From Candidatus Acidiferrales bacterium (GTDB lineage: Bacteria > Bacteroidota > Ignavibacteria > Kryptoniales > JAKASW01): 64,000 nt of DNA. The stretch covers positions 150,532 through 214,531 of the forward strand of contig DATJAY010000012.1 in NCBI GenBank assembly GCA_035515795.1. Reading direction: 5' to 3'. The notes below the pieces were generated by a model, which made no database searches, was not told where the DNA came from, and saw only the letters and a list, made by a program, of their open reading frames with translations. Position 1 is the first letter of the stretch. Each line of letters begins with the position of its first letter. The translations under genes were made by a program, and so were the position numbers. Positions 7,948 through 33,639 of the stretch are shown here, piece after piece.

Positions 7948-8388
7948 CTATTTCAACCGAATCCTCATGCACACCGCCATCTCGGGACAGGCATATGCGA
8001 ATTCTGAGGATTTCTTCATGCTTTCGTTGTCAATGGTGGAACGGTCCACAACTTCAAAACCTTTCTTCAAAAAGAAATCCTTTGCGGTTTCAGTCAGCAA
8101 GGCGACGTTTTGAACTTTTCTTTTTCTAGCTTCGTCAAGCATGAAATCGACGATCTGTGAACCCAAACCCCGACGCTGGATACCAGGCTGAACGGCAACC
8201 GAACGAAGAAGGGCATCTGAACCGTAGAACTCGAAGCCGGCAATTCCTGCAATCCGGTTGCTTTCCTCTGCCATATAAAAAGTTGTTGTATCTTTGTCTA
8301 GACTTTCGGCGGGGAGTTTGGTTGTTTGAAGGAAAGAACGAATCACTTCCTTGTCATCGCCGACGGATTTTCTGAATTGTAATTTCAT
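7948..8388 (-). CDS. arsN2: GNAT acetyltransferase, ArsN2-like
   Basis: The start is set at 8388, where ATG overlaps the arsR stop (ATGA) and AGAGGAG sits at the right distance; the frame continues eight codons upstream but those lie within arsR. This gives 146 residues. VAVQPGIQRRGLGSQIVDFML is the acetyl-CoA loop. The C-terminal ACPEMAVCMR matches the Cys-containing ending I associate with arsenic-operon acetyltransferases called ArsN2. The substrate of ArsN2 is not firmly established; the related ArsN1 acetylates arsinothricin. The assignment rests on that ending and the operon context. Confidence 0.82.
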   Translation of the reverse strand: MKLQFRKSVGDDKEVIRSFLQTTKLPAESLDKDTTTFYMAEESNRIAGIAGFEFYGSDALLRSVAVQPGIQRRGLGSQIVDFMLDEARKRKVQNVALLTETAKDFFLKKGFEVVDRSTIDNESMKKSSEFAYACPEMAVCMRIRLK

Positions 8389-8741
8389 GGACTCCTCTTT
8401 TTTGTCGAGCAATTGGCATCAGCGCAACCGGATCTCAGTTCGTTGAATAGCTTATCCAAATCATCTGCAAGTTCTTCGATCGCTTCTCCATTGAGGCAAT
8501 AACACGATGATGGCCCTTCCACGGTTCCTTTTATCAATCCGGCATCCTTCAATTCTTTGAGATGCTGGGAAACGGTCGCCTGCGCGAGAGGCATTATTTC
8601 TACAATTTCTCCGCAAATACAGGCGTTTCGTTCCGCAAGTGTGCGAAGTATCGCTACTCTTGCAGGATGAGAGAGAGCCTTTGCCCACCTGGAAAGTCGT
8701 ATCTCTTTCGTCTTGAATTCTTCGGTTTTTGTTATCGGCAT
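8385..8741 (-). CDS. arsR: ArsR family metalloregulatory repressor
   Basis: A 118-residue winged-helix protein. KALSHPARVAILRTLAERNACICGEI leads into the DNA-recognition helix QATVSQHLKELKDAGLI. Cys41 and Cys43 in the CICGE segment match the metal-binding CxC of classical ArsR; further cysteine pairs at 80/82 and 106/111 could complete an As(III)/Sb(III) site. It is the first gene of the ars operon and is expected to repress it through the inverted repeat at 8750-8773. Binding of arsenite should release the DNA. It overlaps the acetyltransferase start by 4 bases. Confidence 0.94.
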   Translation of the reverse strand: MPITKTEEFKTKEIRLSRWAKALSHPARVAILRTLAERNACICGEIVEIMPLAQATVSQHLKELKDAGLIKGTVEGPSSCYCLNGEAIEELADDLDKLFNELRSGCADANCSTKKRSP

Positions 8742-8749
8742 CTGAAATC

Positions 8750-8773
8750 CTTTATCGTAAAGATACGATAAAG
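8750..8773 (-). promoter_or_regulatory. probable ArsR operator (perfect 10-bp inverted repeat)
   Basis: CTTTATCGTA at 8750-8759 is an exact inverted copy of TACGATAAAG at 8764-8773, separated by four bases. It begins 8 bases upstream of the arsR start codon, overlaps the -10 hexamer of the predicted arsR promoter at its far end and reaches the AAAGGA ribosome-binding site at the near end. That is the expected site for autorepression. Confidence 0.8.
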
Positions 8774-8799
8774 ATAATAAGAAGTTTCATGCTTGTCAA
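8771..8799 (-). promoter_or_regulatory. sigma-70-type promoter of the ars operon
   Basis: On the minus strand TTGACA (8799-8794) is followed after 17 bases by TATCTT (8776-8771). The -35 box is a perfect consensus. The -10 box runs into the ArsR inverted repeat, so bound repressor would block RNA polymerase. Confidence 0.72.
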
Positions 8800-8840
8800 G
8801 AGGGTGCAATTGGTTTATCGGGCCAAAATTCATAATTTTT

Positions 8841-9794
8841 ATGACCATGGAACTTGAATTAGGAAAGCAGCTCGTTCTCGACGAACTTTTCGATCTTACT
8901 CTTTACAAGCGGCTGCGCAATACCGCTTCGGAAGATATGAAACCGATGTTCGACGAGCTCATTCCGACGGAAAGCAAACATTTCGCTTTCTGGCAGGATT
9001 TCTTTTCGACAAAGATCGAGAAGCTCAATTTCAGGAGACGACTGAAACTCGAAGCTCTCGTTTTCGTTACCAGGATATTGGGAAATCTCGGTGTGCATCT
9101 TGTCCTCGAAGCGATCGAGGTTTACGGCGTGAGAAAGTATATCAATGTCTGGAATCTGTACAAGGGGACACCGATGGGGGATGCGGTACACAAAATCTTA
9201 GAGGACGAGTTCAAACACGAAGACGAAATTGTAACCTCGTCGATTGAAAGAAGGATCCATCCCGAGCGTGTGAGGGATATTTTTCTGGGACTAAACGACG
9301 GGCTCGTTGAAATACTGGGTGCAGTTTCAGGTTTTTTCGCCGCTCTTTCGAATATTTCTGCCGTGATGGCTGCAAGCTTTGCGGTAGCAGTCGCCGGAGC
9401 AATCTCAATGGCGGCAGGTGCGTTCGGTGCGGTGAATTCCGAAAAGGAAGTTGAGATGATCGAATCGGCAAAAAAGGAATTTCTTAAAGAAGACGGGGAA
9501 GCAGACGCCGGTAATTCATCGAACGCATTTGAGTCGGCCGTCATAGTCGGCATTTCCTATTTCTTCGGTGCACTTGTCCCGATGCTTCCGATTATTCTAG
9601 GTGCGCGAAATATTTTCTGGCCGCTCGGGATCGCAATGGTGGTCATGGTCTTTATTTCAACCGTGATTGCTTTTCTATCCGGAATGAAAATGTCGAAGAG
9701 AATTGTCACTAATCTTGTGATACTTCTGATCGCTGTCGGGGTTACTTATGTCGTCGGCATTCTTGTAAGATCGATTTTCGGGATGAATATTTAG
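8841..9794 (+). CDS. membrane-bound ferritin-like protein with VIT1/CCC1 transporter domain
   Basis: The N-terminal half is a ferritin/rubrerythrin-like four-helix domain (LVLDELFDLTLYKRLRNTASED, then PTESKHFAFWQDFF). The C-terminal half, from about residue 140, is a VIT1/CCC1 iron/manganese transporter domain (IFLGLNDGLVEILGAVSGFF, then AISMAAGAFGAVNSEKEVEM) with about five helices. Proteins of this architecture (MbfA type) export or sequester iron. I take ATG 8841 as the start (8847 is also possible); a TTG at 8793 extends the frame but lies inside the arsR -35 box. It diverges from arsR and shares its 100-base control region. Confidence 0.85.
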   Translation: MTMELELGKQLVLDELFDLTLYKRLRNTASEDMKPMFDELIPTESKHFAFWQDFFSTKIEKLNFRRRLKLEALVFVTRILGNLGVHLVLEAIEVYGVRKYINVWNLYKGTPMGDAVHKILEDEFKHEDEIVTSSIERRIHPERVRDIFLGLNDGLVEILGAVSGFFAALSNISAVMAASFAVAVAGAISMAAGAFGAVNSEKEVEMIESAKKEFLKEDGEADAGNSSNAFESAVIVGISYFFGALVPMLPIILGARNIFWPLGIAMVVMVFISTVIAFLSGMKMSKRIVTNLVILLIAVGVTYVVGILVRSIFGMNI

Positions 9795-21092: not shown

Positions 21093-22700
21093 ATGCTAAA
21101 GCACCTGTCCCAACAAATTATTATCTCGCTTACGATCATCGTTATGGTTGTCTCCGGTATCTCGGGATACGTGAGCCTCAGGAATCGCGAGAGAGAAATT
21201 CTACAGACGATGATCTCAGGTGTCGACCAGCTTTCAAAGGGAATTACGAGTGCTGTGTGGCACGCGATGCTCGCCGATGATCGGGCAGCCGCGTATGAAG
21301 TCATGAAAACCGTTGCTTCGAAGCAGGGGATCAGCCGAATCAGGATTTTCAACAAAGAAGGCACCGTGATGTTCTCGACAAAAGTCGAAGACGCAAGTCA
21401 AGTGGATAAAAATGCCGAGGCTTGTGTAATGTGCCACTCGCCCATGCGGCAGCCTCTCGTCAATATAGATGCTTCCTCGCGCTCACGCGTTTTCACTTTG
21501 CCGGACGGTAGCCGCCAGCTTGCGATGATCACGCCGATTTACAACGAGCCGTCTTGCAGCGACGCGGATTGCCACGCTCATCCTCGATCGACCAACGTTC
21601 TCGGCGTACTTGACGTCGCCCTCGATTTGAAACTGCTCGACCATGAACTTCAGTCGGCAAAAAACGAGGTGTATGTCGTAACGGGAATTCAAATTTTGCT
21701 GATCGGACTTTTCATCATTTTCTTCACGCGGCGATTTGTAGATAGACCAATTCGCAAGTTAATTGCCGGGACGAAAGCAGTGAGTCGGATGCAGCTCGAC
21801 CACGTAGTCGAGATAAATTCGAGCCAGGAACTGGGAGAGCTCGCTCATGCGTTCAATTTGATGAGTGAGAGGCTCGACAAGGCGATGGCAGAATTGAATC
21901 AAGCCGCGCAGGATCTCGAGATAAAGGTGAAGGAGCGAACGAAGCAGCTTGAGGCGGCACACCAGAAACTTCTCCAGAGCGATCGCCTCGCTTCCCTGGG
22001 TCAACTTTCGGCCACCGTGGCACATGAAATCAATAATCCTCTTTTCGGGGTGCTGAACCTGGCTGCACTTTTGGAGAGAATCGTGAAGGAGGATGGAATT
22101 CCGTTAGAGCGAGTGCCTGAGTTCAAAAAGTATTTGGGGCAAATCATAAACGAGACGAGTCGCGTCGGGAGAATAGTTTCGGACTTGCTTGCCTTCTCGA
22201 GAAGATCAAAGCCGCAAACCGCCTATGTCGATCTGAACGCAGTGATAAGCACGACGCTCATGATTCTGAGTCACAGACTCAAGCTTGGAAACGTGGAGTT
22301 GAAGCTTCAATTGCAGGATGATCTGCCAAGGATCGAGTGCGACGGCTCCCAGATGCAGCAGGTCGTAATAAATCTTGTCATGAACGGAGCGGAGGCGTGT
22401 CAGAACAAGGGACAAGGAACAGTCGCAATCACCACTGCTCAGGAGAAGGACTTCATTGTCTTGGAGATTTCCGATGATGGCGACGGGATTCCATCCGAAA
22501 TCATGTCGAAAATTTTCGACCCTTTTTTCACGACAAAGGGAGAAGGAAAAGGAGTCGGACTCGGATTGTCGGTCGTGTATGGGATCGTTGATGCGCATGG
22601 TGGAGATATTGCTGTTGACAGTAAAGTCGGAGAAGGAACGACGTTCAAGGTAACCCTGCCAATAAAGAAGACAGATGTCGCAGCAAAACAAAAAGTTTAG
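21093..22700 (+). CDS. sensor histidine kinase with periplasmic c-type haem-binding motifs
   Basis: 535 residues: membrane helix at about 8-28, periplasmic domain 30-193, second helix 194-212, HAMP about 213-265, a coiled coil, then HisKA with ATVAHEINNPLFGV (phospho-accepting His311) and a HATPase domain ending in GVGLGLSVVYGIVDAHGG. The periplasmic part carries CVMCH at 111-115 and CSDADCH (C-x4-CH) at 155-161, so it could bind one or two covalent haems and sense redox state, oxygen or NO. The partner regulator follows 56 bases later. It sits between the haem operon and the multihaem complex operon. Confidence 0.88.
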   Translation: MLKHLSQQIIISLTIIVMVVSGISGYVSLRNREREILQTMISGVDQLSKGITSAVWHAMLADDRAAAYEVMKTVASKQGISRIRIFNKEGTVMFSTKVEDASQVDKNAEACVMCHSPMRQPLVNIDASSRSRVFTLPDGSRQLAMITPIYNEPSCSDADCHAHPRSTNVLGVLDVALDLKLLDHELQSAKNEVYVVTGIQILLIGLFIIFFTRRFVDRPIRKLIAGTKAVSRMQLDHVVEINSSQELGELAHAFNLMSERLDKAMAELNQAAQDLEIKVKERTKQLEAAHQKLLQSDRLASLGQLSATVAHEINNPLFGVLNLAALLERIVKEDGIPLERVPEFKKYLGQIINETSRVGRIVSDLLAFSRRSKPQTAYVDLNAVISTTLMILSHRLKLGNVELKLQLQDDLPRIECDGSQMQQVVINLVMNGAEACQNKGQGTVAITTAQEKDFIVLEISDDGDGIPSEIMSKIFDPFFTTKGEGKGVGLGLSVVYGIVDAHGGDIAVDSKVGEGTTFKVTLPIKKTDVAAKQKV

Positions 22701-22756
22701 AAGGATACAGATGGAATGTGGACGGTGATGGCAAAAGAAGTCTCTTGGAGTCACAA

Positions 22757-24115
22757 ATGAAGATGAAGTGGGAAATACTGGTCGTCGACGATGAAGAAAT
22801 AATGAGGGAATCTCTCATGGCATGGCTTCGCGAAGACGGCTACGCGGTTGACTCTGCCGCCTCCGGGAAAATTGCCCTGGAGAAATCGAAGGAAAAAGAC
22901 TACGCAATTTATTTCATAGATTTGAAAATGCCCGGCGGAATGGACGGCATCGAAACGATGATGGAGGTAAAAAAGATTCATCCGGATGCGCCGATAATCA
23001 TCATTACTGCCTATGCGACGGTGGACACGGCGATCACCGCCATGAAAGAAGGCGCGCAGGAATACATCGTTAAGCCGTGTAATCCTAAAGAGATCTCGAT
23101 TCTTGTCGAGCGGATCATAAAGGTGAAGAACCTGCAGCGCGAGAACATGATCCTGAGGAAGAAGCTGACGAAAGAGTACAATTTTCATGACATCATCAGC
23201 AAGAACCAAAAGATGCAGGACATCTTCCAGCTCATACGGGAAGTTGCGAGCCTGAAAAGCACTGTCCTTATCCAGGGAGAAAGCGGTACCGGCAAAGAAC
23301 TAATCGCTCGCGCAATTCATTATTCTGGTGAGCGTGCGTCGAAACCATTCGTTTGCGTCTCGTGCGCGGCGCTTGCCGAGACTCTGCTCGAATCTGAATT
23401 GTTCGGACATGAGAAAGGTGCATTCACCGGTGCAGTTTCGCAGAAAAAGGGAAAATTTGAGCTGGCGGGCGGCGGCACGATCTTCCTCGATGAGATCGGA
23501 GACATTTCGCAGAAACTGCAGATGGATCTGCTGCGGGTGCTGCAGGAGAAAACCTTTTACCGTGTCGGCGGGACGGACGAGCTGAGCGTCGACGTGCGGG
23601 TGATCGCTGCCACGAACCGCAACCTCGACGAGTCGGTGAAGTCGGAAAAATTCCGCGACGATTTGTTCTATCGTCTGAACGTGATCAACATCCGCATACC
23701 TCCGCTTCGCGAGCGGCGGGAAGACATTCCGCTTCTCGTGAAGAGCTTTATCGAACGGCTGTCACACGAGCTTGGGAAAGAGATTGAGGACATTGCCGAG
23801 TCCGGTTTGAAGCTTCTCATGGATTACGATTGGGCGGGAAATGTCCGCGAATTGGAAAACGCCGTCGAGCGTGCCATGGTAACATGCAAGAACAAAGTCC
23901 TGACGGAAGAAGATTTCGGCTTCATTGAGCTCAACGGCTGGCGCAGGAAGAATTGGAGCATGCCGGACAACATGGCGCTTGACGATGTCGAAAAGCAGGT
24001 GATAGAGGCAACGATAAAGAGAACTGATGGAAACATAAAGGAAGCGGCATCGATCCTGGGAATTGACAGGTCGACGCTTTATGAGAAGATCAAGAAATAT
24101 CAGATAGAGCGGTGA
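22757..24115 (+). CDS. NtrC-type sigma-54-dependent response regulator
   Basis: ATG 22757 has GGAG six bases upstream; a GTG start 39 bases earlier is less likely. About 452 residues. The receiver domain holds ILVVDDEE and the phosphorylated aspartate in YFIDLKMPG. The AAA+ domain has GESGTGKELIARAIHYSG (Walker A), GAFTGA (sigma-54 contact) and FLDEIGDISQKLQ. A Fis-type helix-turn-helix (IKEAASILGIDRSTLYEKIK) ends the protein. Partner of the haem-binding kinase just upstream. Its targets are not evident, as I found no convincing -24/-12 promoter in the window. Confidence 0.94.
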   Translation: MKMKWEILVVDDEEIMRESLMAWLREDGYAVDSAASGKIALEKSKEKDYAIYFIDLKMPGGMDGIETMMEVKKIHPDAPIIIITAYATVDTAITAMKEGAQEYIVKPCNPKEISILVERIIKVKNLQRENMILRKKLTKEYNFHDIISKNQKMQDIFQLIREVASLKSTVLIQGESGTGKELIARAIHYSGERASKPFVCVSCAALAETLLESELFGHEKGAFTGAVSQKKGKFELAGGGTIFLDEIGDISQKLQMDLLRVLQEKTFYRVGGTDELSVDVRVIAATNRNLDESVKSEKFRDDLFYRLNVINIRIPPLRERREDIPLLVKSFIERLSHELGKEIEDIAESGLKLLMDYDWAGNVRELENAVERAMVTCKNKVLTEEDFGFIELNGWRRKNWSMPDNMALDDVEKQVIEATIKRTDGNIKEAASILGIDRSTLYEKIKKYQIER

Positions 24116-26355: not shown

Positions 26356-27195
26356 CTATGATTCGAGAAACATTTCCCCCAGCACCTTGTCCCAATCGGC
26401 TTCGAGATAATTTTTCGACAAGTCATTCTCCAATTCACCGCCGTCGGCGAAGATGATTCCGACTTTCTCTATTGTGAGCAACGTTTCAAGCCGTTCCACT
26501 TCGTGCATGATCCACGGACCGATCTCCGAACCTTTGAGGAGGTGTCGCAGGTCTATTCCGTTTTGCGGTTTCACTCCAATGTAGAAACCGTTTTCTCCAT
26601 TTCCAGTCGATATTACTTTTCCTTCTACCGGCGACAGAACCCGAACCCTTGTGCCGCCCTTCTCGAAGAACCACCCGGTTCCGTTCACTTCGAGTTTGGT
26701 TCCGACTTTTGGGAACTCGATAATGTCCGGCGTGCCGATAATTTTGCTTGCGAAATCGTCAAGCCCGACTGTCAGTGTGCCATCATGCTCTTTTTTTACC
26801 CATGTGTGTCCGCGATGATACAGTCGGTCCGCCGGCATGTTCAGTCCCAAAATGGAGCTGTTCCTGATTTCTCTCTTGTGTCCGTTTGGAATGGCCTTTT
26901 CCAAAAGAAGCCCTGGGTGCAACTCGCAGACTCGGCAGTCAAATGCATTCGGGCAAATTCGTTTCTCCAGTTCTCCACTTATGACATGGCGGCAGACTTT
27001 CGCAGGCGCAGGTAGCTCGGAGAAGTCCTCGTACCATGATATAGACGCAAAGTCCCGGCTCCCTCCGATATTTTTTATCGCGCGTCTTGCGGCGATTATG
27101 AGCGTCGAGAATATGACGGTGACGACCGAATAAAATATTCCGAGAAAAATCAAGTTCCCGGTCTGCCATTTGAATCCGAAAACCCAAGGAAACAT
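26356..27195 (-). CDS. membrane-anchored GcvH-like protein with Cys motif, no lipoyl lysine
   Basis: 279 residues; GGAGG lies 8 bases before the ATG. A membrane helix (about 14-36) is followed by cysteines 68, 81, 87 and 90 (C-x12-C-x5-C-x2-C, CPNAFDCRVC), a spacing I have seen in lipoyl-type proteins of anaerobes. A GcvH fold follows from about residue 124 (LYHRGHTWVKKEHDGTLTVG, then VLSPVEGKVIST). In GcvH the lipoylated lysine lies ten residues before that loop in ESVKA; here the place is held by FFEKGG with glycine at the aligned position. So it is probably structural or metal-binding and not a lipoyl carrier. Last gene of the complex operon. Confidence 0.78.
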   Translation of the reverse strand: MFPWVFGFKWQTGNLIFLGIFYSVVTVIFSTLIIAARRAIKNIGGSRDFASISWYEDFSELPAPAKVCRHVISGELEKRICPNAFDCRVCELHPGLLLEKAIPNGHKREIRNSSILGLNMPADRLYHRGHTWVKKEHDGTLTVGLDDFASKIIGTPDIIEFPKVGTKLEVNGTGWFFEKGGTRVRVLSPVEGKVISTGNGENGFYIGVKPQNGIDLRHLLKGSEIGPWIMHEVERLETLLTIEKVGIIFADGGELENDLSKNYLEADWDKVLGEMFLES

Positions 27196-27224
27196 TTTTC
27201 AAACCTCCACAAAAAGGAAATTGA

Positions 27225-27271
27225 CTGTCATTGCTGAGACTGCCCTTTGGCATCGCTCCTCGCAATGACGG
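27225..27271. repeat. palindromic dispersed repeat between two operon genes
   Basis: GTCATTGC at 27227-27234 pairs exactly with GCAATGAC at 27262-27269 around a 27-base centre containing GGCATCGCTCCTC. The sequence resembles the common bacterial intergenic repeat beginning GTCATTGCGAGGAGCGA. It lies between the nrfD-like gene and the GcvH-like gene of the same transcript and could form a stem in the mRNA. Confidence 0.65.
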
Positions 27272-27289
27272 TCCGATTCTGATAATTTT

Positions 27290-28522
27290 TTATTCGTAGC
27301 TCGTCTCCCTCTCTTGCGGAAATAGCTTCAGGTATCTGAACGAGAACGAGTAAGTTAAAACTCCGTATGCAATAACAAAAAGAAACGTCGCTATTTCCTG
27401 CCAGCTTGGTGTGTAGAGCATGAACTTGTCGAAAGGCAGCGTCGGCACGGCGAGAGTCTGTATCGTCATGACAAACCTGTTGAGAAGAATCCCGCAGCAG
27501 ACCGAGCCTGCGTTCAGAACGAGCCAGCCGGGATTCAATTTCTTGTTCCCGAAAATAAAAACAAGTGCGGGTATCAAACCGAAAACAATTATCTCTGCAA
27601 ACAAGACCCATATGCTGAACGGTTCATGAAGGTAATAGCTCATGGCTGATAGCCTGTGGGACGGAACGGTTCTGTCCATCCAATTCATGGTATCGATGCT
27701 TTTGAGTAGTACGTAGAAAATCAGAAGTGAGCCTGATATTTTTGCGAGAAGTCTGAAGACTTCGTCTTTCACGAGCCGCTTCCTGCTTAGTTTGGATACA
27801 AGCCACGTCGTCAGGATTATGAAGCTCGGCCCGGAAGCTGCCGCGGAGATTATGAAAAGGAAGAATGTCGACGGCCAAATCGCGATCCCTTCACGAAATG
27901 CAAATGGTCGCCCTTGAAGAACTCCGTATAATCCGCCGAGTGAACCCTGATGGAAGAATGAGAGAAATGTCCCGACCCCTGCAAATATTGGTATGACTTT
28001 GTGTAACTGAAATTCGAAAACCAGAAACGACGGAATTTCTCTCAGCTTTCTGTTTTTGAAGATCAGCGGAATATATTCGATCGCGAGAACGGTGAGGTAG
28101 CACGTTATGCAGAACGTTACCTCCGTCAACATCGAGTGGACATTGGGGTGCCAGAACGTAAACCATGCTCTCAGCGGCTGACCGACATCAACCATCAGGA
28201 TGAGAATCGCGCCGCTGTAGCATATGAACCCGATCACCACCGCGCTGCTTATTACCGACTTGAGTTCGTGCTTCTTCAAAATGTAAAGAAGAAATCCGGT
28301 GAAGAATGCGCCTGCGCCGAGCGCGATGACCGACAGGTCGAGAAATATCCAGAGCCCGAAAGAAAAACGGTTGTCCATGTTTGTTTGATTCAAACCTTTG
28401 AGTAGCACAAGGAATATCGCATACATCCCGACGAGCAGCACGGCCGCCCAAGGTATAATCCATGCCAAGAATTTTTTGAATGGCGCTCGATCAAGACCCC
28501 GTGCGATGAGATGACTATCCAT
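27290..28522 (-). CDS. NrfD/PsrC-like quinone-interacting membrane subunit
   Basis: 410 residues when started at the second ATG (28522), which is seven bases from GGGAG; the first ATG is at 28528. Around ten membrane helices are visible. It belongs to the NrfD/PsrC/QrcD/ActC group, which bind menaquinone or menaquinol and pass electrons to an Fe-S partner. The start overlaps the end of the ferredoxin-like gene by 8 bases. Expected to be the membrane core of the complex encoded here. Confidence 0.87.
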   Translation of the reverse strand: MDSHLIARGLDRAPFKKFLAWIIPWAAVLLVGMYAIFLVLLKGLNQTNMDNRFSFGLWIFLDLSVIALGAGAFFTGFLLYILKKHELKSVISSAVVIGFICYSGAILILMVDVGQPLRAWFTFWHPNVHSMLTEVTFCITCYLTVLAIEYIPLIFKNRKLREIPSFLVFEFQLHKVIPIFAGVGTFLSFFHQGSLGGLYGVLQGRPFAFREGIAIWPSTFFLFIISAAASGPSFIILTTWLVSKLSRKRLVKDEVFRLLAKISGSLLIFYVLLKSIDTMNWMDRTVPSHRLSAMSYYLHEPFSIWVLFAEIIVFGLIPALVFIFGNKKLNPGWLVLNAGSVCCGILLNRFVMTIQTLAVPTLPFDKFMLYTPSWQEIATFLFVIAYGVLTYSFSFRYLKLFPQERETSYE

Positions 28523-29339
28523 TGGCATTCTCCCTTTCCGCCGGTTCGTTTTCTGCGAACGTCGTCTTTGACTCGATAAGTCTCCTCACCCATTCTTGCT
28601 CCGAATGAAAGTAAACTTTCGGTTCTGTACCGAGGTTCTCTAGCAAACGGAAACTGTTTTTGTCTCTCGAAAACCTGGAGGCTTTGCTATCGGAATCGAG
28701 CAGATCGCCGAAAGCCATTGCCCGAGTCGGACAACACTCGACACATGCCGGAACATATTCGGCGGGGTCAATGTCTTTTTTCCCCTCAACCGCTGCTTTC
28801 GATCTGGCCGCTTGAAGGCGGTGGAAACAGAAATTGCATTTCTCGACGACGCCTCTCATGCGCGGCGAAACATCCGGGTTCAACGTTTTCTCCATCCCAT
28901 TCGGCCAAGCCGGATCCCACCAGTTGAAATATCTTGCGTGATACGGACATGCCACCATGCAGTAGCGACAACCAAAGCATCTGACAGGAATCTGGCCGAC
29001 TATTCCTGTGCTCTGATCCAGTTCGACCGCGTTCTGAGGGCAGACTGACACGCACGGGGTATGATGCTCGCATTGCTGGCACGAAATCGGGAAGAAGACC
29101 GACTTATTGTTGGGAAATGGAAGGCCATTGTCGACTTCGTAGACTCGCATCGGTGTGATTCCCGTCCTGTCGGTTGCAGTTGACGGAGCAGGTGGAACGT
29201 TGTTCTCGACCGCGCATGCCACCATGCACGCGCCGCAGCCGGTGCACCTGTCGACGTCGATGACCATTCCGTATTTTGCCTTGCGATAATTAATCACTTT
29301 ATCTACGCCGGAAGAATTTCCGCTTTCGTAATTCGCCAT
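28515..29339 (-). CDS. four-cluster ferredoxin-like electron transfer subunit
   Basis: 274 residues with the DmsB/NrfC/PsrB arrangement: CTGCGACMVAC, CQQCEHHTPCVSVCP, CFGCRYCMVACPYHARYF, and CNFCFHRL paired with CVECCPTRAM. These cysteines fit four cubane clusters. There is no signal peptide of its own, so it probably reaches the periplasmic side with the molybdopterin-family partner, which has a Tat-like leader. The start lies 37 bases inside the end of that partner gene, and the end overlaps the nrfD-like start, consistent with a fixed complex. Confidence 0.9.
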   Translation of the reverse strand: MANYESGNSSGVDKVINYRKAKYGMVIDVDRCTGCGACMVACAVENNVPPAPSTATDRTGITPMRVYEVDNGLPFPNNKSVFFPISCQQCEHHTPCVSVCPQNAVELDQSTGIVGQIPVRCFGCRYCMVACPYHARYFNWWDPAWPNGMEKTLNPDVSPRMRGVVEKCNFCFHRLQAARSKAAVEGKKDIDPAEYVPACVECCPTRAMAFGDLLDSDSKASRFSRDKNSFRLLENLGTEPKVYFHSEQEWVRRLIESKTTFAENEPAERENANG

Positions 29340-31420
29340 GTTGAATCATTCTCTATTTTACAGATTTCTAAAATGTTCGTTTCATCTGATCCGACCGTCG
29401 CTTGGATTATGCCGGGCATGACCGCTTTGTCCAACTTTACTTTTATGTCCGTGATGCCGATTTCTGTCTTGAGTGTTGCTCTATTGCCATCGCTCAGACT
29501 AAACCTGCTTGCAGTTTCAGGATTGATTGAAGCGGTATTGCCTGATTCGCGCAGATCGGATTCTCTGTCGAGTTTTTCCATGAGTTGATGAGGCTGGGCA
29601 ACGGTCGCCGCGTACGGCAGAAGAACGAGCCCCGGGCCATCTGAATTGCGGGTAGTCGCCGCCGATAACTTTTCAAATCCATGATCGTCTCCTCCAAGGA
29701 ATTGGAAGCGTGTCGGGATCTCTTTTGACCTTGACATCACTTTGTCTTCGTACCAGCATCCGCCGTGTGACAAAATTTGCGTTAACTGCTCAGCGGAGGA
29801 GATGTCCGATAATCTCGCTGTCTTGCCGGATGTAGCATCGAAGACAAATCCTTTTCGTTCCCTGAAGATCTTTGTGACGCGGCTCTTCAGGAGCGTCTCA
29901 AGTTGTGGAAACTCATTATCGGTATCCCTCGCAATTCTTCTTATGACATCGAGTGGTTCCACGACTTCGTTCGGCGTCACGAGGATCGGTCTGGAAATGG
30001 AGTACGATGCCATGGAAACGGTTGGCGGCGTCGGGGAATCGCCGTAAGATTCAAGGTATGTGGGGGAGGGAATCAAATAGTCTGCATATCTTGCGATTCC
30101 GGTGAAATACGGTGAAAGACTGACGACCATCGGATCATTCGTGACGAGTTTTTGTTCAAGCATCTGCCAGGGAAAGGCACTGCCAGATTCCGCGCCGTCC
30201 AGAATCAAAACTCTGATTGAATGATCAGGCACATCGATTAGTGAAGTTTCTTCTGCAAGCTTTTCTTCAAGCGGGGCGGGTAATCCGGTTCGCGGAATCA
30301 AGCCTCCTTTTGTGTTGACGGCGCCGAGTAAAATGTTTAAATCCATGAAAGCAATCTGCTCGTCTCTACTGAAAGAAGAGCCGTCGAATACCACGAGTGA
30401 GGGTTTCCTTGAAGCCAGGTCACGCGCGATCTCGCGGATCCTTTCCGCGGGAATTCCCATCTGCCCTGAAACATTTGCCGATGAAAATTTCTTCACTAAT
30501 TCGGTGAAAGAAACGCTGGAATTGTTGTCGAAGTCTTTTGAATGTGCCTTAAGTTTTTGTATGTCGCAGAGTCTTTCTTCTATCATTACATCTGCGATCG
30601 CAAGCACAAATGCGGCCTCGGTGCCGGGTTTAACCGGAACCCATTCGTCGGCAAGTTGAGCGGTCCTCGAATGAATCGATTCAACCTGAATTATCTTGAC
30701 GTGATCTTTTCCGCTGCGATTTTTGACAACTCTTGAAAATTGTCCGAGCGTTCCCCATCCGTCAAGTACCGGAGCTCCGAAGCTCAGGATTGTTCGGGCG
30801 TTCTCTATATCAAATCCAAATGAAGTTTCTTTTTCACCAATGACGTTTTTAATAAGCTCTGTCGAAACGCCATGTGTCGTTGGAGGAATGACGTAGAGCC
30901 CATCGGCTAATCCCGCCAGAAATTTCCTATAAGCAAAAGATATTGTTCTTTTGGGTTGTCCATCAAGGATTGCGACGGATCCTTGTCTTGATGACGAGAT
31001 CGCACCGATAATCGCGGAGATCGATTCCTCCGAGGAGACCGGGACACTATTCGTGCCGTTGCTGTTATGCAGAACTTTATACGGCTGGAGGAGCCGGGAT
31101 GGGTGATATGGAAGCAGGTGTCCACCGAGTCCGATTGAACATAATCCGCCGCCGCTAATCGGGTGATCCGGAATTCCCGTCAGGCTGACCGGCTGGTTGT
31201 CGACGCATCTTGTGCGGACGCCGCACGCCATGGGGCATAAAGTGCAGGTCGTATTCCTGAAATTTATCTTCCCATTTCGTGGTACGGGGATCCACGACCA
31301 ATTCTGTGACCACTTTGCGGTCTCGTCGAGAATTTTCCAGGGGATCGGAGTGATCATCAAGCCGACCGCAGAGCCTCCGACGAGTTTTATCCAGTTTCGA
31401 CGTGTAATCCGCTTGCTCAT
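29303..31420 (-). CDS. molybdopterin oxidoreductase-family subunit (QrcB/ActB-like)
   Basis: 705 residues. RRNWIKLVGGSAVGLM at the N-terminus is a Tat-type leader. CTLCPMACGVRTRC near residue 58 and a later cysteine in GGLCSIGLGG form a C-x2-C-x3-C...C site for a 4Fe-4S cluster, as in the DMSO reductase superfamily. QrcB of sulfate reducers and ActB of alternative complex III belong to this superfamily yet lack the metal cofactor; whether this one binds molybdenum is not visible by eye. AGGA lies six bases before the start. The pentahaem gene is just upstream and the ferredoxin gene overlaps the 3' end. Confidence 0.88.
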   Translation of the reverse strand: MSKRITRRNWIKLVGGSAVGLMITPIPWKILDETAKWSQNWSWIPVPRNGKINFRNTTCTLCPMACGVRTRCVDNQPVSLTGIPDHPISGGGLCSIGLGGHLLPYHPSRLLQPYKVLHNSNGTNSVPVSSEESISAIIGAISSSRQGSVAILDGQPKRTISFAYRKFLAGLADGLYVIPPTTHGVSTELIKNVIGEKETSFGFDIENARTILSFGAPVLDGWGTLGQFSRVVKNRSGKDHVKIIQVESIHSRTAQLADEWVPVKPGTEAAFVLAIADVMIEERLCDIQKLKAHSKDFDNNSSVSFTELVKKFSSANVSGQMGIPAERIREIARDLASRKPSLVVFDGSSFSRDEQIAFMDLNILLGAVNTKGGLIPRTGLPAPLEEKLAEETSLIDVPDHSIRVLILDGAESGSAFPWQMLEQKLVTNDPMVVSLSPYFTGIARYADYLIPSPTYLESYGDSPTPPTVSMASYSISRPILVTPNEVVEPLDVIRRIARDTDNEFPQLETLLKSRVTKIFRERKGFVFDATSGKTARLSDISSAEQLTQILSHGGCWYEDKVMSRSKEIPTRFQFLGGDDHGFEKLSAATTRNSDGPGLVLLPYAATVAQPHQLMEKLDRESDLRESGNTASINPETASRFSLSDGNRATLKTEIGITDIKVKLDKAVMPGIIQATVGSDETNILEICKIENDSTWRITKAEILPA

Positions 31421-31428
31421 TTTGAATC

Positions 31429-32016
31429 CTATTTATGACAATCGATGCAGCTTTCCTGCACGCCGCGTTCATGGTGACAGTTAGAACAATCGTCCATCCT
31501 CATTCCACGCGATGGAGTTGAGGGAAAGTTGAGCAGATCCTTGCCGAAGACATCGAGGCCATATCCGCTGATACGGCTGAAATATGCCGGCCGGAGTTTC
31601 CGCGTATACGCCTGTCCGAAGTGGCATGTTTGGCAATCCATTCCCGCGAGTTTCACATGAGTCGAGTGTGAGAAGAACACACTTTGCGGCTGCATGGAAT
31701 AGATGATCCATGGAATCTCTCGTCCCGGCATCACGTATTCATTTACCAGCCGCGCTTCGTCTTTGGAAATTCCCATCGGCTTCGAATGACAGCTTCTGCA
31801 TTTTTCTATGGTGGGAATTCCGTTGAACCGTCCATCCTTATCGAAAGTGTGGCAGCTGCCGCACTTCAATCCCACGTTGTCACCCGTGTGAGCGAAATGG
31901 CTGAATTGTATCGGTTGATTGACAGGTCTGTAGATAACGTATGGAAAAGTGATCCAGCCAAACAGAAGTATGACCGTTATCCCGGTGAGAAACATTAATT
32001 TACCATGGTCCTTCAC
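31429..32016 (-). CDS. membrane-anchored pentahaem c-type cytochrome
   Basis: The GTG at 32016 has AAGGAGA seven bases upstream; an earlier GTG at 32046 overlaps the previous gene. About 195 residues with one N-terminal membrane helix (FLTGITVILLFGWITFPYVI) and five CxxCH motifs: CGSCH, CRSCH, CQTCH, CSNCH and CIDCH. Class III/c7-like cytochromes of this type are the electron exit of Qrc (QrcA) and alternative complex III (ActA). It lies between the second GcvH-like gene and the molybdopterin-family gene. Electrons would pass from here to a periplasmic carrier or outer-membrane conduit. Confidence 0.9.
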   Translation of the reverse strand: MKDHGKLMFLTGITVILLFGWITFPYVIYRPVNQPIQFSHFAHTGDNVGLKCGSCHTFDKDGRFNGIPTIEKCRSCHSKPMGISKDEARLVNEYVMPGREIPWIIYSMQPQSVFFSHSTHVKLAGMDCQTCHFGQAYTRKLRPAYFSRISGYGLDVFGKDLLNFPSTPSRGMRMDDCSNCHHERGVQESCIDCHK

Positions 32017-32042
32017 AATCAATTCTCCTTCTTTATCCCTGT

Positions 32043-32996
32043 TCACCGCCGGGATGAGAAGAACTCGTTGTATAGAATTACTAATTCTTCTTTGTTCAAA
32101 TTTCTGGATAGTTCGCTGCTGAATATTCCGCCGTCGGCGGCGAGCCGAGCCTCGTTTCCGGCTGCGTCAACAAGTTTTTCGCGCAGAAGCTCCGATAGTT
32201 TTGTCGCTTCATTTTTCATCCACGTCCGAGCATCACTGCCGCGAATCAATCCATGTCGTATATCGGTTTCTCCTTGCATCCTGGCCGCGACGCCCTCAAA
32301 GAGCCATCCGAACGTGTACGGATCGCTAATGATTTTATCGGGCTTCGTTCTCAGGAGCGAATTTGTTGCTTTGACATCGATGTGATTCGGAAAAACCATC
32401 GGGAGATCGGCTCCATTAACCGTTATTACTGCGCCTGCAAGATGTTTACCGGAAGTCGGAGCGAAAGCGAGTTTTTCTACTTTGCCGACGACCCTGGTGA
32501 AGAAAGGATCGACACCTATGTGGCATGTTCCTTCCTCGTCAATTTCAGCCCACATATGATTCGCGGAATAGAAATGCCAGCCGGTCGTTTGAATGCCTTC
32601 AACAGACCATGGACCGTCATCTTCTGAATTGAGATCTGGTGTGGCAGCTTGATGTAATTTCCGCAGGTCGAGATGGGAAATGTTCAAAAACGATTCGCAA
32701 TAACGATGGCTGGACGTTCCGCAGCGTGAAAGATTCGGCTCACTGTACGGAATGTACTTCACGACCGATTCGCCCGAGCAGTATTGTGCCAGAGATTCCT
32801 GCAAGAATGGGCAGCGGGATTGACTGGGAGATTCCTCGTGAAGCTGTTTCATCCAGGGACAAGAAGTGTACCCGATCGATGAGCATCGCTCATCCGTTTC
32901 ATTCTCTGATTTGATTGGATTCTGCGCGATCATTTTCTTGAACTCGCATGCGCCGCAGGACTTTACTTGGGCCTCGCGCAAGAAGGAACATCTCAT
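32043..32996 (-). CDS. soluble cysteine-rich GcvH-like protein with duplicated Cys motif
   Basis: 317 residues, no signal peptide or membrane helix. Nine cysteines lie in residues 1-100 in two copies of one pattern: RCSFLREAQVKSC then RCSSIGYTSCPWM, and RCPFLQESLAQYC then RCGTSSHRYCESF. A GcvH-like domain follows (TGWHFYSANHMWAEIDEEG, HIGVDPFFTRVVGKVEKL, later ISDPYTFGWLFEG, which matches the NSEPYAGGWIF-type end of GcvH). The lipoyl lysine motif is absent; the aligned place reads NGADLPM. It could bind Fe-S or zinc and act in assembly or regulation of the complex. TAATG junction with the preceding gene and a 4-base coupling zone before the cytochrome gene. Confidence 0.78.
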   Translation of the reverse strand: MRCSFLREAQVKSCGACEFKKMIAQNPIKSENETDERCSSIGYTSCPWMKQLHEESPSQSRCPFLQESLAQYCSGESVVKYIPYSEPNLSRCGTSSHRYCESFLNISHLDLRKLHQAATPDLNSEDDGPWSVEGIQTTGWHFYSANHMWAEIDEEGTCHIGVDPFFTRVVGKVEKLAFAPTSGKHLAGAVITVNGADLPMVFPNHIDVKATNSLLRTKPDKIISDPYTFGWLFEGVAARMQGETDIRHGLIRGSDARTWMKNEATKLSELLREKLVDAAGNEARLAADGGIFSSELSRNLNKEELVILYNEFFSSRR

Positions 32997-33286
32997 TAGA
33001 TTCGCGATTTGCGATTTTTGTTTTTTGCTTTGATCGTCTCGATGCCGTCTTCGGAAACGACAAGCATATCGTCGTCATCTTTTTTCTTACGGCCGTCTGA
33101 CATGGTAACACCGAGTCCTGTAACGATGAACGCATGATCGCCTATTTTGCTTTGTTTTCTTGATTTAGCCCGTTGTCTGATCTCCCGGATTGTCGCGTAG
33201 CCGATTACCAGAACACAGGCCAGCGTTACCAAGCCGAGCACGATGTTTGTTACAGTCAGCCAGAATACCTGGTCATAATTTATCAT
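32996..33286 (-). CDS. small single-helix membrane protein, first gene of the complex operon
   Basis: The start at 33286 has AAAGGAGA seven bases upstream; the open frame extends further but without such a site. About 96 residues: one N-terminal membrane helix (about residues 6-28, FWLTVTNIVLGLVTLACVLV) followed by a basic, Lys/Arg/Asp-rich cytoplasmic tail. No family is recognised. The stop shares a base with the start of the GcvH-like gene (TAATG). The position suggests an accessory or assembly subunit of the NrfD-type complex. Confidence 0.7.
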   Translation of the reverse strand: MINYDQVFWLTVTNIVLGLVTLACVLVIGYATIREIRQRAKSRKQSKIGDHAFIVTGLGVTMSDGRKKKDDDDMLVVSEDGIETIKAKNKNRKSRI

Positions 33287-33639
33287 GGTGAATCTCCTTT
33301 TGCCTTGAGTGTCAACCTCACCAGGATTCACAACCCTGATGAGCTTCCTTATTTTTTCACAAGCAATGTGCCGGGCCGTACGAATCTCATAAGTTGGATC
33401 TGTAAATCATTGTGATGTGAGAAGATAAAAATCTTCACGACCTCACGGCGAGAATCAGACTGGTTGTAACTGTGTTGGCTAAGCCTACATGTCGGTTGGC
33501 AAATCCGGCACACAAAGACGAGGCCGTCGCTTGAATTACTCGGAGTCCTGAATGATTTTGCCTGTACGCGAGAGAATTCGGAACAAACCAATCGGTCGCG
33601 TTTTTGTTCCTTGTCTGAATTTTCATAGAGGAGAGAAAT
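33287..33639. other. divergent control region of the complex operon and a secreted protein gene
   Basis: A 353-base gene-free stretch between the minus-strand complex operon and a plus-strand secreted protein gene. Open frames on the minus strand here look like chance frames. It should hold both promoters; I find no confident sigma-70 or sigma-54 pair. The clearest structure is the palindrome at 33421-33436. Confidence 0.55.
33421..33436. promoter_or_regulatory. palindrome GAAGAT-AAAA-ATCTTC in the divergent region
   Basis: GAAGAT at 33421-33426 and ATCTTC at 33431-33436 form a perfect inverted repeat with four A between, flanked by imperfectly matching GTGA and CAC. It could be an operator or a short hairpin. 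It lies 135 bases upstream of the complex operon start and about 200 bases upstream of the secreted protein. Confidence 0.35.

Follow-up and report, generated by a model that had tools for sequence, protein, structure and literature searches.

Two GcvH-like proteins without the lipoyl lysine in an extended Qrc-type operon: a putative accessory subunit and a putative regulatory arm

What might two relatives of the glycine cleavage H-protein (GcvH), both expected to be free of lipoate, be doing in a respiratory operon? The question is raised by a locus of an uncultured member of the Bacteroidota (genome size 4.08 Mb), in which seven genes lie on the minus strand in the order sp-gh1-qrcABCD-gh2 within the window, i.e. 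the whole stretch of 64,000 nucleotides analysed here. They encode a small membrane protein (SP), a first GcvH-like protein (GH1), the four subunits of a Qrc-type complex and a second GcvH-like protein (GH2). SP and GH1 are in one-base contact and overlaps occur at GH1-QrcA, QrcB-QrcC and QrcC-QrcD. An earlier note on this DNA had listed the same seven genes, all of which are present where it placed them, and regarded the operon as Qrc-like or alternative complex III (ACIII)-like, with the GcvH-like products as subunits, assembly factors or thiol/redox relays. Our computational analysis leads to a joint mechanism in which GH2 would be an accessory subunit of Qrc and SP and GH1 would form a regulatory arm, a proposal that we regard as evenly balanced between acceptance and doubt.

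As judged from its sequences, the locus is an operon of the Qrc type (cytochrome c:menaquinone oxidoreductase) in an extended form. QrcA scores over its NCBIfam cut-off and QrcD at it (566–599 bits in the relatives), QrcC and QrcB reach 90% and 67% of theirs, and the genes are contiguous in the order A-B-C-D in the window as well as in the relatives. In this order and in the QrcA and QrcD scores, and also in its combination of a multihaem cytochrome, a complex-iron-sulfur-molybdoenzyme (CISM)-like protein, a four-cluster Fe-S protein and an NrfD subunit, it resembles the menaquinone reductase QrcABCD of the Desulfobacterota. The Qrc part of the earlier assignment is supported, whereas the ACIII part had to be dropped, because the genes of the molybdopterin-family and Fe-S proteins are separate instead of forming an ActB fusion, only a single NrfD subunit is encoded, and ActE- or ActF-like genes are lacking in the operon.

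There are however differences from the known complex. The type described here adds three conserved genes, sp, gh1 and gh2, the absence of GH genes in Desulfobacterota being taken from papers and not from genomes. QrcA has five CxxCH motifs, as do 48 of 49 relatives, whereas six haems are listed for known QrcA (PMC8076601). QrcB retains the cysteines of C-x2-C-x3-C-x27-C, an Fe-S motif found in 45/53 relatives, unlike QrcB of D. vulgaris, which has no redox cofactor (PMC13059093); no Mo-ligand cysteine is aligned in QrcB, PsrA C173 falling opposite a gap. In addition, this type of Qrc occurs outside the Deltaproteobacteria, unlike the QrcD of a 2021 survey, which was confined to 35 deltaproteobacterial species (PMC8076601).

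The likeness of both accessory proteins to GcvH was borne out by structural searches. GH2 matches PF01597 (GCV_H) with 38.1 bits (cut-off 22.2), GH1 lies slightly under the cut-off with 21.1 bits, and profile searches against the PDB gave convincing matches to H-proteins only, for both. AlphaFold models built from 61 (GH2) and 38 (GH1) natural sequences reached predicted local distance difference test (pLDDT) values of 90.6 and 86.7, respectively, and Foldseek returned the E. coli H-protein as top match for both, with best E-values of 8e-8 and 2e-8. At the level of predicted models, the common GcvH fold is thus confirmed, and a conserved H-x-W segment is likewise shared with GcvH. Unlike GcvH, neither family conserves the lipoyl lysine: in the alignments, the corresponding column of GH1 holds L/F/I/V in 49/49 sequences, and in GH2 the position eight residues ahead of the hairpin proline is occupied by G/N/D/R in most sequences and by K in 6/72. 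The earlier note, which had read the lysine as missing, was right in this respect for both families. A canonical GcvH is encoded separately in the host genome, directly before a glycine-dehydrogenase-like gene.

The GH proteins also differ from GcvH by an extra membrane anchor, cysteine domains and a C-terminal DGG box. The GH2 cysteines C68, C81, C87 and C90 are present in 76/76 sequences, and the eight cysteines of GH1 (C3, C14, C38, C46; C62, C73, C92, C100) are kept in 47–49 of 49. The latter form tandem four-cysteine repeats at the N-terminus, i.e. two similar C-x10-C...C-x7-C units; as the internal repeat score is only tied with the highest of 300 shuffles, the repeat is called from the motif together with the agreement in predicted secondary structure. 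Neither a signal peptide nor a membrane helix was seen in GH1. Most members of the GcvH-like family carry the DGG box in their C-terminal part, and the box also terminates SP, relatives of which end with an LGxTMADGG box in 42/42 cases. In the window this box of SP is altered to VTMSDGR.

The nearest functional parallel is LbpA of the sulfur-oxidising Hdr-like system, as this GcvH-like protein is also tied to a redox complex through gene linkage (PMC6067878). LbpA is however lipoylated on a strictly conserved lysine, kept in all 95 sequences (PMC6067878), whereas GH1 and GH2 are expected to be without lipoate and show neither a conserved lipoyl lysine nor hdr-like linkage.

Both GH genes belong to the operon, as the earlier note had supposed and as a neighbourhood survey now supports. 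A search of 84,980 species genomes with an alignment-based GH2 profile yielded 75 loci (a single-sequence GH2 search of genome contigs gave no matches). By scripted count, GH2 is located immediately 3' of qrcD in 65/67 of the loci that are covered far enough, and both misses appear to be technical, one being an overlap or artefact of open reading frame calling and the other a contig end. GH1 is found immediately 5' of qrcA in 42/47 loci by script and in 45/47 on inspection, the true absences being the operons L086 and L094. Within the phylum Bacteroidota, QrcD was detected in 10/296 genomes (E<=1e-100), GH2 is adjacent in 10/10, and full-length GH1 is present in exactly those ten of the 296. 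Further QrcD matches are followed by GH2 in the Acidobacteriota (2/2) and Myxococcota (4/4). As the same order recurs in Bacteroidota, Acidobacteriota, KSB1, Eisenbacteria, Krumholzibacteriota and Myxococcota, the arrangement is not due to chance.

Several natural variants of GH2 bear on its relation to the complex. In the Abyssobacteria, a stand-alone gene of about 70 codons follows qrcD in 5/5 complete loci, and its product matches the GH2 anchor only, with the motif MxPxxFEFxWDxGHMIFFGVFYxV. The myxococcal GH2 of locus L208 consists of anchor and GcvH domain without the Cys domain, and one family (L049-L051) possesses an additional tandem GH2 that is anchor-less. Because anchor-only, Cys-less and anchor-less forms exist, the anchor appears to be the constant element beside QrcD to which varying heads are added, and the separate anchor gene after qrcD suggests that GH2 is a Qrc subunit.

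The heads of the GcvH-like proteins are predicted to be cytoplasmic. In GH2 the helix is followed by the positive residues AARRAIK, which places the head in the cytoplasm according to the positive-inside rule. In relatives at locus L062 a receiver domain sits between the anchor and the GcvH domain, and this insertion after the anchor would put both domains on the kinase side. The redox subunits of Qrc as described lie in the periplasm, and QrcD draws protons from the cytoplasm; QrcD itself is without cofactors and its quinone pocket faces the periplasm (PMC6303296, PMC13059093). The GH2 head would consequently lie at the proton-entry face and off the electron path, which disfavours a role as electron relay.

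A gene-loss series in two sister genomes of the same genus separates the two ends of the operon. In G009 qrcABC are gone and qrcD and gh2 are pseudogenes with stops and frameshifts, GH2 missing two of its four cysteines, while SP, GH1, the histidine kinase and the response regulator are intact; a 200-aa frame is found where relatives have an M54 metallopeptidase. The ratio of nonsynonymous to synonymous substitution rates (dN/dS) between G009 and G012 is 0.135 for GH1, near the 0.105 of an intact pair, and 0.287 for GH2 (intact pair 0.132). In G001 neither qrcABCD nor gh2 is present, and no strong QrcD was found elsewhere in the genome. Its SP and GH1, with all eight GH1 cysteines retained, face a kinase-M54-regulator set at the same genomic position. 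GH2 thus goes with Qrc, whereas SP and GH1 can remain with the two-component system, so that GH1 is not merely a subunit. The subunit role proposed in the earlier note is accordingly supported for GH2, by the separate anchor gene and by its decay together with Qrc, and not for GH1 as a simple subunit.

In the window, a sensor histidine kinase and an NtrC-family response regulator are convergent neighbours of the operon. In the relatives, an archaemetzincin-like M54 metallopeptidase lies between kinase and regulator in 40/41 loci (e.g. L179:7814-8395); no M54 gene is located between them in the window (22700-22718). A cassette elsewhere in the host genome (C5) does carry one (L008:14553-15197). 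A -24/-12 site is present 5' of sp in 29/42 relatives within the same 60-nt interval, compared with a mean of 1.35 and a maximum of 7 in a shuffled control and 2 on the reverse strand. The window site cGGCACattgcTTGTg is imperfect, having TTGT for TTGC and being one base off the -12 consensus. Transcription of the operon probably starts at a sigma-54 promoter, with the adjacent haem-sensing kinase and NtrC-type regulator in control. The earlier note had overlooked the haem kinase, the sigma-54 activator, M54 and the promoter, as well as the second GcvH-like pair of this genome and the receiver-GcvH fusions treated below.

Related pairs of GcvH-like proteins are found at other redox loci, and the idea that such a pair is specific to Qrc was rejected on account of those at Hmc-like, 13-haem and NuoF loci. 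The host genome itself contains a second pair, GHa and GHb, around Hmc/Hyb-like FeS and NrfD genes, followed by histidine kinase, response regulator and M54 genes, and a GHa-FeS-NrfD-GHb-kinase-regulator-type order occurs in many families. A third arrangement consists of FeS, NrfD, a 13-haem cytochrome and a histidine kinase, and then two tandem receiver-GcvH fusions (L062:7477-8271 and 8300-9451; also at L058, L061 and L067). These two kinds of loci resemble the Qrc operon in combining an accessory pair with a haem kinase and NtrC-type or receiver-GcvH regulators, and differ in the class of NrfD and in having a pair of GHa/GHb type or fused to receivers. In the Zixibacteria, GcvH-like pairs occur with NuoF, kinase, regulator and M54, and at L141 a pair is accompanied by kinase, regulator and an HdrA2-like protein. 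The core that recurs combines paired lipoyl-less GcvH-like domains with a redox complex and a kinase circuit. The wider proposal that follows, which we put forward tentatively and with rather more doubt than confidence, is that lipoate-free GcvH-fold pairs were recruited widely as cytoplasmic regulatory or sensing modules of quinone-linked (NrfD) complexes and some NADH-linked complexes, working with a dedicated circuit of haem kinase, sigma-54 regulator and M54, being fused to receivers in one branch and adding at least one unrecognised Qrc subunit through the GH2 anchor.

For the operon in the window, the joint mechanism would run as follows. The haem kinase would sense the periplasmic redox state and drive the operon via the sigma-54 activator, and Qrc would pass electrons from cytochromes to menaquinone. 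GH2 would be a membrane-anchored accessory subunit, its helix packing against QrcD and its cysteine-bearing head, with Fe-S or Zn bound, positioned at the cytoplasmic face, the side of proton uptake by QrcD. The partner arm, made up of SP and GH1, would touch the head of GH2 and connect the complex with the kinase/regulator circuit as a sensor or gate. The lipoate-free GcvH fold would then serve as a protein-docking and sensing module, either coupling the state of the quinone complex to the circuit or gating the complex. Some observations weigh against this scheme. Metal binding cannot be essential everywhere, as the L208 protein has no Cys domain, and GH1 is dispensable in some lineages, as seen from L086 and L094. 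Kinase and regulator are not within reach in 6/27 loci having about 9 kb on both sides, so that the circuit is not always adjacent, and direct coupling of a GH domain to kinase signalling is seen only as a fusion in another sub-family. In addition, the state seen in G001 and G009, with GH1 retained, may be of recent origin and short-lived.

Several of the same data can be read differently. GH1 and GH2 might be assembly or maturation factors, acting in Fe-S insertion or QrcC-QrcD docking, or structural subunits without signalling, which would account for the strict operon linkage, the lock-step presence with QrcD, the conserved anchor that is also found alone and the Cys-rich domains. We nevertheless consider this unlikely, although it deserves serious attention, as two sister genomes that lost Qrc have kept SP and GH1 intact, QrcC of the known complex is located in the periplasm (PMC6303296) and the heads are predicted on the cytoplasmic side, related domains are fused to receivers, and D. 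vulgaris Qrc was produced and purified from four genes only (PMC13059093).

The thiol/redox relay of the earlier note fares worse. Such a relay, with clusters or cysteines of GH1 and GH2 passing the electrons, would connect cytoplasmic carriers with the quinone complex and extend Qrc to cytoplasmic donors or acceptors; the invariant cysteine sets speak for it, as do the NuoF-like and HdrA2-like neighbours of relatives and the fusion of one GcvH domain with a NuoG-like Fe-S protein. With periplasmic redox centres, a cofactor-free QrcD, a periplasmic quinone pocket (PMC6303296, PMC13059093) and heads predicted on the other side, there is no obvious route for electrons across the membrane, and members of the GHa type are without conserved cysteines, which makes a relay improbable. 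Least credible of all is a role of GH1 and GH2 as ordinary carriers, with lipoate attached to a displaced lysine close to the hairpin and a function like that of LbpA in the sHdr pathway. The GcvH hairpin is present, and a lysine does occur in 41/72 GH2 sequences two positions ahead of the expected site; there, however, 23/72 have Arg and 8 another residue, the canonical position is mostly not Lys in GH2 and L/F/I/V in GH1 as described above, and all 95 LbpA proteins retain their lysine (PMC6067878). Lipoylation on the displaced lysine was rejected from these GH2 counts, and the alignments largely refute a carrier function.

Qrc is known from sulfate reducers with four subunits, and the branch found in Bacteroidota, Acidobacteriota, Myxococcota and others comes with two additional GcvH-fold proteins free of lipoate, with SP as a small partner in the membrane and with probable sigma-54 control of its own. 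Should GH2 prove to be a subunit, a cytoplasmic domain that current models do not include would be located at the proton-entry side of the complex, and other lineages may have a small anchor subunit that has so far escaped notice. The GcvH fold would gain a lipoate-independent use, and a connection between electron flow and two-component signalling could be tested here. A search of the open-access literature in PMC turned up no paper that connects GcvH-like proteins with NrfD complexes, subscription papers and preprints being outside its range.

Table 1. Positions of the operon genes, the neighbouring regulators and the candidate promoter in the window
Feature	Position	Strand	Description
sp	32996..33286	-	96-aa membrane protein, one helix; directly before GH1 in 41/43 loci
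gh1	32043..32996	-	317 aa; Cys repeats, then GcvH-like domain ~130-240, then C-terminal DGG box
qrcA	31429..32046	-	205-aa cytochrome c, pentahaem, membrane-anchored; NCBIfam 191.8 bits (cut-off 180)
qrcB	29303..31420	-	705-aa molybdopterin-family protein, Tat-type (twin-arginine leader); NCBIfam 296.6 bits (cut-off 440)
qrcC	28515..29339	-	274-aa Fe-S protein, four clusters; NCBIfam 359.6 bits (cut-off 400)
qrcD	27290..28528	-	412-aa membrane subunit, NrfD type; NCBIfam 570 bits (cut-off 570)
gh2	26356..27195	-	279 aa; anchor 1-44, 4-Cys motif, GcvH-like domain ~113-210, C-terminal ADGG box
sensor histidine kinase	21093..22700	+	periplasmic CxxCH and Cx4CH haem motifs, HAMP, HisKA, HATPase
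NtrC-family response regulator	22718..24115	+	GAFTGA loop (sigma-54 activator)
candidate sigma-54 (-24/-12) promoter cGGCACattgcTTGTg	33358..33373	-	87 nt 5' of sp start

Some minor observations concern single loci. In the Planctomycetota, a Fer2/NuoG-like Fe-S protein is fused to a GcvH-like domain (L165:1489-2766) and adjoins a NuoF-like gene and a histidine kinase. One Ignavibacteriales family (L054-L057, in genomes G033 and G042) has several orphan tandem GHa pairs with no NrfD or kinase genes in view, some of the contigs being short. Comparison with PHROGs gave nothing useful, with a weak holin-like match for SP alone. The gap between qrcD and gh2 measures 94 nt in the window versus a median of 3 nt in the relatives, and a palindromic repeat-like element (GTCATTGCGAGGAGC...GCAATGAC, 27205-27269), of which the window has one copy, lies in this gap.

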